A stretch of 64,000 nt of DNA from Acidobacteriota bacterium (lineage in GTDB: Bacteria > Acidobacteriota > Vicinamibacteria > Vicinamibacterales > JAKQTR01): assembly GCA_026393755.1 (NCBI GenBank), contig JAPKZO010000040.1, forward strand, positions 103,311 through 167,310, written 5' to 3'. The notes below the pieces were generated by a model, which was not told where the DNA came from, made no database searches, and worked only from the letters and a program-made list of their open reading frames with translations. Of this stretch, positions 44,397 through 48,526 are shown piece after piece; within the stretch, counting starts at the first letter, position 1, and each line of letters starts with the position of its first letter. The translations under genes were made by a program, and so were the position numbers.

Positions 44397-47213
44397 CTAC
44401 GCGCACCCGCTGGTCGACCCGCAGTTGGCGCATTTGTAGCAGCTGCCGCTGCGCACCATGATGGCCCCGCACAGATTGCACGGGGGCGCGTCCTCCTGAT
44501 TCTGGATGGTCGACATGACGGTGGCCCGCGTGCCGGTTGCGATCTCGGCGGGGGCGCCGAGGACGACCAGCTTCAGTTGCTCGCCCTCCGTGCTCTTCGA
44601 CGGGTTCTGTGCGCCCGGCTCAGGCGTGTTCACACCCGCCCGGAACTGGGCTTCGGCGGACAGGAATTTCGTGGCCAGCCAGCGGAACACGTAATCGACG
44701 ATCGACTTGGCGAAGCGCACCTGCGGGTTTTTCGTCATGCCCGACGGCTCGAACCGCATGTGGCTGAACTTGTCCACGAGCACCGGCAGCGGCACGCCGT
44801 ATTGCAGCGCGTAGGAAATGGCCTGGGCGAAGGCGTCCGCAAATCCGGAAATCGTCGATCCTTCCTTGGCCATGACGAGGAACAGTTCGCCGGGCATGCC
44901 GTCGTCGTAGAGGCCGACGGTGATGTAGCCCTCGTGTCCCTGAATATCGAACTTGTGCGTGATGGCCTGGCGCTCTTCGGCCAGTTTTCGCCGCACGATG
45001 TGGGGTGCGGACTTGGCCGCGACCGCGGCGGCGGGCGTCTGAGTCTTGTCCTTCGACGTGGTGAGCGGCTGAGTGCGCTTGCTGCCGTCGCGGTAGATCG
45101 CGATGGCCTTCACGCCCATCCGCCACGACTCGAGATACGCCTGGGCGATGTCCTCGGTGGTCGCCTCTTTCGGCACGTTCACCGTCTTGGAGATGGCTCC
45201 GGAGATGAAGGGCTGGACGGCGCCCATCATCCTGATGTGGCCCATGTAGTGGATCGAGCGCTGTCCCTTGGCCGGCTTGAAGGCGCAGTCGAACACCGAC
45301 AGGTCCTTCTCTTTGAGGTACGGCGCGCCCTCGATGGTCTCGTTCCTGTCGATGTGGTCGATGATGGCCTTGACCTGGGCATCGGTGTACCCGAGATGGG
45401 TGAGCGCAGCCGGCACCGTCCCGTTGACGATCTTCATCGAGCCGCCGCCGACGAGGTTCTTGTACTTGACGAGCGCGATGTCGGGTTCGATGCCCGTGGT
45501 ATCGCAGTCCATCATGAAGCCGATGGTCCCGGTCGGCGCGAGCACCGTGGCCTGGGCGTTGCGGTACCCGAACTCCTCGCCGATCTCGATCGCGTCATCC
45601 CAGGCGGCTTGGGCCGCATCGAAGATGTCGTTCGGGACGAGCGCAGACGCGACATCGCGCAACGCGTCGCGGTGCTTGCGCATGACGCGCAGGAAGGGCT
45701 CGCGGTTGGGCTCGTACCCGGTGAAGGGGCCGCCGGTGTCACGGCTGATGCGGGCGGACTGGGCGTACCCTTCTCCGGTCATCAGCGCGGTGATCGCCGC
45801 CGCGTACGCGCGGCCCCCATCGCTGTCATACGGCACGCCGCGCGACATCAGCAGGGCGCCGAGATTGGCGTAGCCCAGGCCCAGCGGACGGTAGTCGACG
45901 CTGTTGCGCTCGATGGCTTTGGTCGGGTAACTGGCGTTGCCCACGATGATGTCCTGGGCGGTGGTGAACGTCCGCACCGCCGCCCTGAAGGCCACGACGT
46001 CGAACTCTTCCCGCCGGTCGACGAACTTCATCAGATTGATCGACGCCAGGTTGCACGCCGAGTCGTTGAGGAACATGTACTCCGAACACGGGTTCGACGC
46101 ATTGATGCGGCCGGCGGCCGGGCAGGTGTGCCACTGGTTGATCGTCGTGTCGAACTGCATCCCCGGATCGCCGCAGATGTGGGTGGCGTCAGCGATCATC
46201 TGCATCAGGTCGCGCGCCTTGTAGGTGCCCATGATCGTGTCGGGGTTGGTCACGGCCCGCGTGTGCCACGGCCCGTCATCCACCACCGCGCGCATGAACT
46301 CGTCGGTCGCACGCACGCTGTTGTTGGAATTCTGGAAGAACACCGACGCGTAGGCCGGTCCGGTGAACGACCCGTCGTAGCCCGCGTCAATCAGCGCCCA
46401 GGCCTTGCGCTCCTCTTCGACCTTGCAGGTGATGAAGTCCACGATGTCCGGGTGCTCGGCGTTCAGGATGACCATCTTCGCCGCGCGGCGGGTCTTGCCG
46501 CCGGACTTGATCACGCCGGCAAAGGCGTCGTAGCCCTTCATGAAGGACACCGGCCCCGATGCCGTGCCCCCGCCTGCGACGACCTCGCGCGACGATCGCA
46601 GCGACGACAGGTTCGTCCCGGTCCCGGATCCGAACTTGAACAGCATGCCTTCGGTCTTCGCGAGCGTCAGGATCGAGTCGAGCGTGTCGTCCACCGAATT
46701 GATGAAGCAGGCCGACATCTGAGGGTGCTTCTCGATGCCGCAGTTGAACCAGACCGGGCTGTTGAAACTGCCCTTCTGATACACCAGCAGGTGCTTCAGG
46801 TCGTCGCTGAAGGCCTGGAGGGCCTCCTCGGTCGCAAAGTACTTCTGCGCGCGGGCCCACCCGGTGATCGTGTCGACCACGCGCCCGATCAACTGCCGGA
46901 CGCTCGATTCGCGCTCGCTGGCACCCACTCTCCCGCGGAAGTACTTCGACACGACGATGTTGGTGGACTGCTGCGACCAGGACTTCGGCATCTCGACGCC
47001 GCGCTGCTCGAACACGGTCTCGCCGCGGTCGTTGGTGATCACCGCATCGCGGGTGTCCCACACGATCTCGTCGAACGGATCGCGCCCGGGCGCCGTGAAG
47101 AACCTCGAGTACTCCATCCCCGGCGCCGGCGTCGCGTCATGCCGCGTGACGTCGCTCCGCGGATCAACCCCTTCGGAGCCCACCGCCCTGGTGTCCTGCG
47201 CCCCTTGCTGCAT
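44397..47213 (-). CDS. nrdJ: Adenosylcobalamin-dependent ribonucleotide reductase (class II)
   Basis: About 938 residues, the size of the long NrdJ form. Active-site features include SACFINSVDD, NPCSEY (radical and proton-transfer Asn, Cys and Glu) and PTGTIGFMMDCDTTG. The C-terminus carries the paired-cysteine motif CNLCGAIMVRSGSCYKCANC, a zinc or redox module typical of this type. It makes deoxyribonucleotides using B12 instead of oxygen, so it works with or without air. I start it at ATG 47213, which has GGAGG four bases upstream; ATG 47228 is a slightly longer alternative without such a site. A roughly 300-base leader and two NrdR-like boxes lie upstream, so NrdR repression is likely. Confidence 0.94.
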   Translation of the reverse strand: MQQGAQDTRAVGSEGVDPRSDVTRHDATPAPGMEYSRFFTAPGRDPFDEIVWDTRDAVITNDRGETVFEQRGVEMPKSWSQQSTNIVVSKYFRGRVGASERESSVRQLIGRVVDTITGWARAQKYFATEEALQAFSDDLKHLLVYQKGSFNSPVWFNCGIEKHPQMSACFINSVDDTLDSILTLAKTEGMLFKFGSGTGTNLSSLRSSREVVAGGGTASGPVSFMKGYDAFAGVIKSGGKTRRAAKMVILNAEHPDIVDFITCKVEEERKAWALIDAGYDGSFTGPAYASVFFQNSNNSVRATDEFMRAVVDDGPWHTRAVTNPDTIMGTYKARDLMQMIADATHICGDPGMQFDTTINQWHTCPAAGRINASNPCSEYMFLNDSACNLASINLMKFVDRREEFDVVAFRAAVRTFTTAQDIIVGNASYPTKAIERNSVDYRPLGLGYANLGALLMSRGVPYDSDGGRAYAAAITALMTGEGYAQSARISRDTGGPFTGYEPNREPFLRVMRKHRDALRDVASALVPNDIFDAAQAAWDDAIEIGEEFGYRNAQATVLAPTGTIGFMMDCDTTGIEPDIALVKYKNLVGGGSMKIVNGTVPAALTHLGYTDAQVKAIIDHIDRNETIEGAPYLKEKDLSVFDCAFKPAKGQRSIHYMGHIRMMGAVQPFISGAISKTVNVPKEATTEDIAQAYLESWRMGVKAIAIYRDGSKRTQPLTTSKDKTQTPAAAVAAKSAPHIVRRKLAEERQAITHKFDIQGHEGYITVGLYDDGMPGELFLVMAKEGSTISGFADAFAQAISYALQYGVPLPVLVDKFSHMRFEPSGMTKNPQVRFAKSIVDYVFRWLATKFLSAEAQFRAGVNTPEPGAQNPSKSTEGEQLKLVVLGAPAEIATGTRATVMSTIQNQEDAPPCNLCGAIMVRSGSCYKCANCGSTSGCA

Positions 47214-47518
47214 ACATCCTCCGACCATGCAACGTGACCCTGGCCCCGACAGGCCCGTTGCCTACGACACTCAACCGGTGGTTGGTGACTGCGGCACGGA
47301 GTCGCCACCTGCGACATCCGATAACCGCGTGACCAGAATGGCCAGCCCGCCCTTCGATCGGTTTCCCTTCATCACGTGCGACCACCTGCAGCCCGCTCGG
47401 GCTGCTGACGTCCCGGGAACCCATGCCGATCCTCGGTACGAACACGCCGTTCTGCCCTGATCTTACACTGGCGAGAAGCTGGGAGATTCTCGCGCACCCG
47501 CTCCGATGTCGAGCGGAC
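47214..47518 (-). other. Long 5' leader of nrdJ
   Basis: About 300 bases without a gene between the likely promoter and the start codon. It contains at least two stable hairpins: GCGAGAA/TTCTCGC with a 9-base loop (47471-47493) and CAGCCCG/CGGGCTG (47389-47404). Its length and structure suggest a regulatory leader. I looked for cobalamin-riboswitch landmarks and did not find them convincingly. Confidence 0.5.
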
Positions 47519-47548
47519 AATATGCGCTGTGCCGGCCGATCTTGTCAA
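47519..47548 (-). promoter_or_regulatory. Likely nrdJ promoter
   Basis: On the minus strand a perfect TTGACA (47543-47548) is followed after 18 bp by CATATT (47519-47524). Transcription would start near 47512. It is the best sigma-70-like promoter in the 551-bp gap upstream of nrdJ. Confidence 0.6.
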
Positions 47549-47556
47549 GCACAATT

Positions 47557-47604
47557 ACACCACATATAGTGCCCGTTGTTTAGGTTAGACGCAATATACT
47601 GTGG
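47557..47604 (-). promoter_or_regulatory. Tandem NrdR-box-like sites
   Basis: ACACCACATATAGTGC (47557-47572) and ACGCAATATACTGTGG (47589-47604) each match the 16-bp NrdR-box consensus as I recall it (acaCwAtATaTwGtgt) at about 13 positions. Their starts are 32 bp apart, about three helical turns, which is the spacing known for paired NrdR boxes. They lie just upstream of the nrdJ -35 box. NrdR represses ribonucleotide reductase genes when dATP is plentiful. The nrdR gene itself is not in this window. Confidence 0.7.
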
Positions 47605-47764
47605 ATTGTGGCGCATTTTCATTTATTTCGCCATTTATTCGCTTTTCTGGTCCTTCCATAAGGTATATGGCGCTCGCCGCGGCACTTCCATGGCGGTCGG
47701 CCGTCGCCAGCCGGGCGATGCCAGGTCTGGCCGTGGCGCCACCGCATGATAGAGTCACTGGATT
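47605..47764. other. AT-rich spacer with short direct repeats
   Basis: This stretch is much richer in A and T than its surroundings. It contains the tandem pair CATTTATTTCGC (47620-47631) and CATTTATTCGC (47632-47642). It may serve as an UP-element-like or regulatory region for nrdJ on one side, or as the promoter region of the CPBP gene on the other. No gene is supported. Confidence 0.4.
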
Positions 47765-48526
47765 GTGCAGGAGCCTGTTTCGGCCTCGGATCCCCTCGTT
47801 CCCGCCGCTCAGCCCGTGACGTCACCGTGGCGGGCCGCGCGGGCTGCCGCGCTGGCTGAGGTCGTGCTGACATCAGGGTATCCCACGCAGGTGTCGATCG
47901 GGCTGCTCCTGGTCTGGGCCGGCATGGATCCACGCGTTCCAGATGGCCGCCTCTCGATGCCGTTCGTGGTGACGCTGTGGCTGGTGGATTCAGTCGTGCT
48001 GGTTGGCCTCATCGTCGCCCTGCTCCGGCTGCGCGGCGAGCGCCTCGGCGCGTTGCTGTTCGGTACCCGGTCATGGCTGCGTGAGGCGGGGCTGGGTCTG
48101 GCGCTGGTGCCAGTGGTCTTCGGACTGGTGATCGGGATGCTGGCGGTCGTGCGCTATTTCTGGCCGGGCCTGCACAATGTGGCGGTCAATCCGTTCGAAG
48201 ATCTGATAGGGTCGGGCCGTGATGCTGCCATTCTCGCCGCAGTCGCCGTGCTGAGCGGCGGCATCAAGGAAGAACTTCAGCGGGCCTTCGTGCTGCGCCG
48301 CTTCGAGCGCTATCTCGGCGGTGCGCGCGTCGGGCTTGTCGTCTTCAGCGTGGCCTTCGGCGCGGGACACTTCATTCAGGGATGGGACGTGGGCGTCGTC
48401 ACGACGCTGCTCGGCCTGTTCTGGGGCATTCTCTTCCTCAAGCGCGGAAGCTTCACCGCCTCCGCCGTCAGTCATTCTGGCTTCAATGTGGCGCAGATTA
48501 TCCAGTTCGTGGTCGTCGGATCGTAG
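47765..48526 (+). CDS. CPBP-family intramembrane metalloprotease
   Basis: 253 residues with about six to eight helices. The family motifs are visible: GGIKEELQRAFVLRRFE (the EExxxR-type motif), FGAGHFIQGWDVG (conserved His) and AVSHSGFN (second His). Members related to Rce1 cleave prenylated or other membrane substrates; bacterial roles are diverse and the substrate here is unknown. Start: GTG at 47765, without a strong ribosome-binding site. Its 3' end overlaps the next gene by 41 bp, so it may be the first gene of the glycan operon, although its link to glycan assembly is only positional. Confidence 0.82.
   Translation: MQEPVSASDPLVPAAQPVTSPWRAARAAALAEVVLTSGYPTQVSIGLLLVWAGMDPRVPDGRLSMPFVVTLWLVDSVVLVGLIVALLRLRGERLGALLFGTRSWLREAGLGLALVPVVFGLVIGMLAVVRYFWPGLHNVAVNPFEDLIGSGRDAAILAAVAVLSGGIKEELQRAFVLRRFERYLGGARVGLVVFSVAFGAGHFIQGWDVGVVTTLLGLFWGILFLKRGSFTASAVSHSGFNVAQIIQFVVVGS

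Follow-up and report, generated by a model that had tools for sequence, protein, structure and literature searches.

A probable NrdR operator upstream of the core promoter, and a candidate leader RNA, before nrdJ in the order Vicinamibacterales

NrdR loaded with ATP is reported not to bind DNA (PMC9110341, PMC12176259), and binding is described as requiring dATP together with ATP or ADP (PMC12051234, PMC9110341, PMC12176259). With these nucleotides, according to two of the reports, the protein assembles into a tetramer, which binds a pair of boxes and bends the DNA (PMC9110341, PMC12176259). The DNA-contact residues given for NrdR of Streptomyces coelicolor are D15, R17 and the arginines at positions 26-29 and 37 (PMC9110341). 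NrdRs are said to bind best with linkers of 15 to 16 bp (PMC12051234), and the boxes are said to overlap the site of RNA polymerase (PMC12176259). Here we describe a box pair before the class II ribonucleotide reductase (RNR) gene nrdJ of a member of the Vicinamibacterales (Acidobacteriota), together with its promoter and leader, and compare them with the corresponding regions of 60 relatives of the same order.

The nrdJ gene and its paired boxes

The window, the whole stretch of DNA that was analyzed, is 64 kb long and contains a single RNR gene of the type concerned here, preceded by a ribosome-binding site:

44397-47228, minus strand: nrdJ, encoding a B12-dependent RNR of class II (943 aa when counted from the first ATG)
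47218-47222, minus strand: ribosome-binding site GGAGG, for the likely start codon at 47213

The nrdJ product scored 1397.9 bits against the curated model NF005122 for B12-dependent RNR (cutoff, 859) and is the sole match to PF02867 in the 4.43-Mb genome, a count that leaves out the anaerobic NrdD. The in-frame second ATG at 47213, which lies 4 bp past GGAGG, is a likelier start codon than the one at 47228; a similar arrangement of GGAGG and start codon, GGAGGATGCATGCAGG, is found in a relative (L030). The divergent gene at 47765-48526 would encode a CPBP-type membrane protein, judging from weak NCBIfam matches below the cutoff.

The single ATP-cone protein of the genome is NrdR, with a score of 190.9 bits against TIGR00244 (cutoff, 124.65). 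Its gene is located on a different contig from nrdJ (L001:1354-1812, place C12:4388). When residue numbers are read by eye, the protein harbors D15, R17 and arginines 26-29 and 37 at the S. coelicolor numbers, and a lysine at position 12, where S. coelicolor has arginine.

Two 16-bp sites lie upstream of nrdJ. They were scored against the NrdR consensus ACACWATATATWGTGT:

47604-47589, minus strand: distal NrdR box CCACAGTATATTGCGT, 13/16 to the consensus, at a position conserved in relatives
47572-47557, minus strand: proximal NrdR box GCACTATATGTGGTGT, 13/16, with a core that fits a published search expression

The box starts are 32 bp apart on the minus strand, which leaves a linker of 16 bp. 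Both boxes are palindromic and show the conserved C/G and the central AT of NrdR sites. These two boxes are the only sites in the 64 kb that score at least 13/16, and no other pair of 12+12 or better occurs there at 31/32 bp. Dinucleotide shuffling of the surrounding 160 bp (5000 times) and of the intergenic region of 536 bp (1500 times) never produced a 13+13 pair; the G+C content is 46% in these 160 bp and 65% in the window. The core of the proximal box satisfies the search expression published in PMC12051234, the distal box deviates from it at one position, and the 16-bp linker is within the range of 15 to 16 bp given in the same source. The first-pass annotation had described two 16-bp sites with about 13 consensus positions each, 32 bp apart and thus at the three-turn spacing typical of NrdR operators, just upstream of a TTGACA-18-CATATT promoter for nrdJ. 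The box scores and positions, the published linker range and a -35 hexamer 8 bp past the proximal box all bear out this description.

The scan for further box pairs that it had suggested, carried out over the whole genome with the pair pattern, returned three matches: the pair at nrdJ, one within long overlapping open reading frames (L142) and one within an open reading frame of 172 aa (L141). A looser, published-style pair pattern with one mismatch allowed gave 95 matches per strand of the genome, against 73 and 57 in the control, and was discarded as too loose.

The annotation had also let its proposal stand or fall with the presence of nrdR in the genome and with conservation of the boxes in relatives. 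The gene is present, as described above, and the boxes are conserved. A NrdJ match was obtained in 59 of the 60 relatives and an ATP-cone match in all 60. Usable upstream regions were available for 56, as G016 has no NrdJ match and the start of the gene is missing in G012, G037 and G045. A pair sum of at least 20 at 31/32 bp was found before nrdJ in 53 of these 56, against a shuffle mean of 0.2, and among spacings of 20 to 47 bp the mean pair score was highest at 32. The three with a lower sum are G040, G038 and G056; the contig of G040 ends before the operator, which was found on a neighboring contig. A looser count that took the best of seven spacings was positive in nearly all relatives, and 53/56 is the controlled count. 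For column conservation, half-motifs, leaders and promoter distances, G022, G040 and G049 were excluded, leaving a set of 53 relatives in which several columns of the proximal box are invariant. Our results indicate that the two boxes very probably form one NrdR operator for nrdJ, and dATP-dependent control of the gene would be the best reading of it.

There are three further observations. A box pair 32 bp apart lies upstream of nrdR in G041 (L118:2106-2153), which suggests self-control of nrdR in that genome. At L179, box-like halves about 280 bp before nrdJ seem to be about one helical turn closer than usual. Repeats of GCGAA or of a AAATAGGGC-like type recur at 47605-47660 and at the same place in relatives from several families of the order.

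Promoter geometry, the inter-box element and the action of NrdR

The predicted promoter of nrdJ lies beyond the proximal box:

47548-47543, minus strand: predicted -35 hexamer TTGACA, 8 bp beyond the proximal box
47524-47519, minus strand: predicted -10 hexamer CATATT, after an 18-bp spacer, with a predicted transcript start near 47512

A promoter resembling TTGACA-17/18-CATANT follows the proximal box in 53 of the 56 relatives, and no TTGACA promoter was recognized in G022 and G049. TTGAC is present in 53/53 anchored promoters, where the anchoring itself favors TTGAC, and the -35 follows the box at a distance of 8 bp in 33 of them, of 9 bp in 12 and of 7 bp in 8. Anchoring searched 6 to 15 bp past the box, a procedure that favors the presence of a promoter but not so narrow a distance. 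The nrdJ operator therefore stands wholly upstream of the -35 hexamer without overlap of the predicted promoter, whereas the usual, not universal, NrdR operator overlaps the site of RNA polymerase.

The same measurement was made outside the order on 61 of 80 named nrdJ loci; 18 had been set aside as members of the order (NrdJ identity of at least 71%) and L192 had been dropped for too little upstream DNA. The pair sum was below 22 in 38 of the 61, and the other 23 have strong pairs. Hexamers beginning with TTG and matching TTGACA at 5/6 positions or more were sought in a stretch that began 30 bp ahead of the distal box and extended 60 bp beyond the proximal one. Such a -35-like hexamer lies at 6 to 9 bp in 12 of the 23, at 10 to 11 bp in 3 and at 18 bp, about one helical turn beyond 7 to 8 bp, in 3 others, with none of these in 5. 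The fixed upstream placement is shared by nrdJ promoters from other phyla, in contrast to the promoters of nrdA within the order.

The nrdA promoters were inspected in G058, G047, G038 and G013, four relatives that have this class Ia gene. The nrdA genes also carry box pairs, at 31 bp, and in G058, G047 and G038 the best -35/-10 combination is inside the pair; the pair of G013 is doubtful, with its second box inside a riboswitch. Since the promoter is inside the pair at nrdA and downstream of the pair at nrdJ, NrdR would cover the promoter of nrdA only and would sit upstream of that of nrdJ. Three of the four (G013, G058 and G047; L136, L137 and L138), which are also carriers of nrdJ, have a cobalamin riboswitch (RF00174) before nrdA.

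Simple promoter occlusion is not indicated at nrdJ, because the operator is wholly upstream of the -35 hexamer. Its position upstream of the core promoter in a fixed helical phase suggests that NrdR probably contacts RNA polymerase or bends the DNA from there and does not cover the promoter. With ample dATP, NrdR would occupy the operator and the transcription of nrdJ would be lowered; when dATP drops, NrdR would release it. NrdR binding, the nucleotide switch and repression as the direction of control are what we infer for nrdJ. This placement raises the question of whether NrdR always blocks a promoter or touches RNA polymerase from upstream.

A further conserved element lies between the boxes:

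47579-47594, minus strand: inter-box element TTGCGTCTAACCTAAA, with the order-level form TTGCGnnTGnCCTAAA, from which this copy is off at one position

The exact TTGCGnnTGnCCTAAA is found in 21 of the 60 relatives, once in each and always before nrdJ (20 at the mapped nrdJ, and G040 by way of its neighboring contig), and it overlaps the distal box. Column conservation in this part of the operator covers TTGCG, within the distal box, followed by nnTGnCCTAAAA. TTGCG and, in the spacer, CCTAAA occur together in 34 of the 53 relatives, are both missing in 15 and are found singly in only 4 (Fisher p 1.9e-9, ignoring shared ancestry). Use of the element as the site of a second protein or as an aid to bending is in either case possible. 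In the first case, another regulator would use it to compete or cooperate with NrdR, at nrdJ only, a proposal compatible with our preferred explanation. Restriction of the exact motif to nrdJ, with no second place in any of the 21 genomes, and the co-occurrence of the two half-motifs speak for it, but it would be unusual for a regulator to have only one target, the motif might instead help NrdR to bend DNA, and the copy in our genome is imperfect. Moreover, no NrdR box is seen in the inspected flanks of 12 loci with the motif outside the order (L144-L155), so the motif appears there without a link to NrdR. We hold a second regulator to be possible, with the balance somewhat against it. In one genome, G294 (L153, L156-L164), the 16-base motif was counted 12 times, and the 10 listed places are identical and repeat-like.

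The conserved TTGCG could also belong to a second, weaker promoter beneath the boxes, with TTGCG of the distal box as its -35 and the proximal box as its -10; NrdR would occlude this promoter, and TTGACA/CATATT would escape control. The -35 of nrdA in relatives does coincide with that portion of the distal box, and nrdRJ of Propionibacterium acnes is reported to have two promoters, one of them overlapped by the boxes (PMC3848588). The hexamers are poor, however, as a spacing of 17 gives CACAAT in many relatives and better ones need 19 to 20, and CCTAAA in the spacer is left unexplained. We regard a second promoter as unlikely.

Another possibility is that NrdR activates nrdJ from its helix-phased upstream site, like class I activators, and represses nrdA by sitting on its promoter where both genes exist. 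The 7 to 9 bp between box and -35 in 53/53 relatives, the distances outside the order (6 to 9 bp in 12/23, and one helical turn on, at 18 bp, in 3/23) and the nrdA promoters inside the pair in G058, G047 and G038 would all suit this arrangement. In Pseudomonas aeruginosa, moreover, NrdR is reported as an activator of topA, and nrdJa was lower in an nrdR mutant under one condition (PMC4409342). RNR genes nevertheless rise on deletion of nrdR in most reports, according to PMC9110341, raising RNR synthesis at high dATP makes little sense, and repressors that act from upstream are also possible. Activation of nrdJ by NrdR is the less likely direction, and we consider it quite improbable. Chance likeness of the boxes in A+T-rich intergenic DNA, which the low local G+C content might suggest, can be dismissed as extremely improbable, given 0/5000 shuffles of the same stretch and a conservation across the order that already refutes chance.

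A candidate regulatory leader RNA

The preferred reading, repression by NrdR from upstream, concerns transcription. The transcript from the predicted promoter would begin with a long leader in which two hairpins are recognized:

47214-47512, minus strand: predicted 5' leader of nrdJ, about 300 nt, from the predicted promoter and the start codon at 47213
47471-47493, minus strand: leader hairpin H1, GCGAGAA / UCUCCCAGC loop / UUCUCGC, supported by covariation
47236-47255, minus strand: candidate second hairpin of the leader, H2, with GGCCU / GUCGGGGCCA / GGGUC; the copy of this genome is weak

H1 is located close to the start of the predicted leader, with its loop around UCCCAG, and hairpins of this type are present in nrdJ leaders of relatives (for example, L003:4561-4602 and L011:2967-3008). 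In 41 of the 53 leaders (11 lack the CCC[AG]G anchor, and G011 was dropped), the mean stem score is 7.85, against 5.33 when the 3' arms are swapped among leaders (standard deviation, 0.29; maximum of 1000, 6.16); the rows of G027, G036, G038 and G051 have a poor anchor or a poor stem. Changes on both sides are found at all 8 pairs of H1 in a subset of 16 rows, which was chosen for agreement on the best register and so favors pairing; the test on 41 rows is less biased.

A model built from these 16 rows, R1, matches our own H1 at 37.6 bits (E 6.4e-5), where this copy is itself a training row. Among 66 loci searched, R1 reached E<=0.1 in 12 nrdJ leaders outside its training set (for example, L168, L018, L027, L037 and L174). 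Across 60 whole genomes at the same threshold, its 16 matches at nrdJ are exactly its 16 training rows, and it has 9 matches at other places (E 0.0048-0.072), about the number expected by chance.

When all 256 four-letter loops were scanned, CCCA and TCCC ranked first in the first 75 nt of the leaders, and GGGG led in the remainder (z 8.8 from 25 shuffles). This suggests that the UCCC loop pairs with a GGGG loop. Hairpins with a GGGG loop and a score of at least 7 are present in 25 of the 53 leaders, against 7.75 in shuffles, and in relatives they are often located, by eye, just before the ribosome-binding site. H2 of our genome is not significant alone, as shuffles reach its score in 40%. When whole leaders were folded to a consensus, one family at a time, they yielded no single shared structure other than H1 and, as judged by eye, H2. 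The leader may control the translation of nrdJ, and its hairpin is a candidate regulatory RNA.

No Rfam family was matched by the leader in the window stretch or in the relatives' stretches examined. Two known RNAs were considered and rejected. The Rfam nrdJ RNA, RF03034, gave 0 matches at E<=1 in 47100-47900 of the window; it was also found in 0 of the 60 relatives, where the control genomes were silent too, so that this zero is weak alone. RF03034 does match L255, from Streptomyces sp. BHT-5-2, at 60.7 bits, and R1 has no match in L255 or L256. A cobalamin riboswitch before nrdJ was likewise rejected, since RF00174 matched neither the window stretch nor those of 20 relatives at E<=1.

These results raise the possibility that nrdJ of this order is under two layers of control: NrdR on an upstream operator that is helix-phased, does not overlap the promoter and holds an extra motif, specific to nrdJ, between its boxes, and a new leader RNA whose UCCCAG loop pairs with the GGGG loop of a hairpin often near the ribosome-binding site. 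Transcription and translation would then be set separately, and the same NrdR would occlude the nrdA promoter where class Ia RNR is present. We put this combined scheme forward tentatively, as a possibility short of an even chance. No earlier description of the two layers together was found in the open-licence literature. The operator would place a nucleotide-sensing switch on what is apparently the sole PF02867 RNR of the cell, in a little-studied order.

Comparison with known systems

The nrdRJ operon of S. coelicolor is similar in that a class II RNR gene is preceded by boxes about three helix turns apart, and the D15 and R17 described for its NrdR fit the numbers of our protein (PMC9110341). 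The boxes there are described as lying upstream of the start site and overlapping it, with nrdJ next after nrdR (PMC9110341), whereas here they are upstream of the -35 hexamer and nrdR is on another contig. In nrdHEF of Streptococcus pneumoniae, as here, both the -35 and the -10 are reported to lie downstream of the last box, but this is a class Ib RNR with three boxes and linkers of 24 to 26 bp (PMC12051234). Two boxes, functional by mutation, are also described before nrdJ of P. aeruginosa; they differ in that NrdR box 1 of nrdJ overlaps the -10, and topA of that organism has a single box and is activated (PMC4409342).

With regard to the leader, the Rfam nrdJ RNA RF03034 is likewise a two-hairpin RNA adjoining nrdJ, but its sequence and loops differ from those of the order. 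Leader control of RNR by RF00174 before class Ia nrdA, as reported for P. acnes nrdAB (PMC3848588), is paralleled by the riboswitch before nrdA in 3/4 relatives, with no counterpart found before nrdJ. As an NrdR operator, the box pair before nrdJ belongs to a known kind, of which it represents a variant by virtue of its placement, its inter-box element and the leader that follows.
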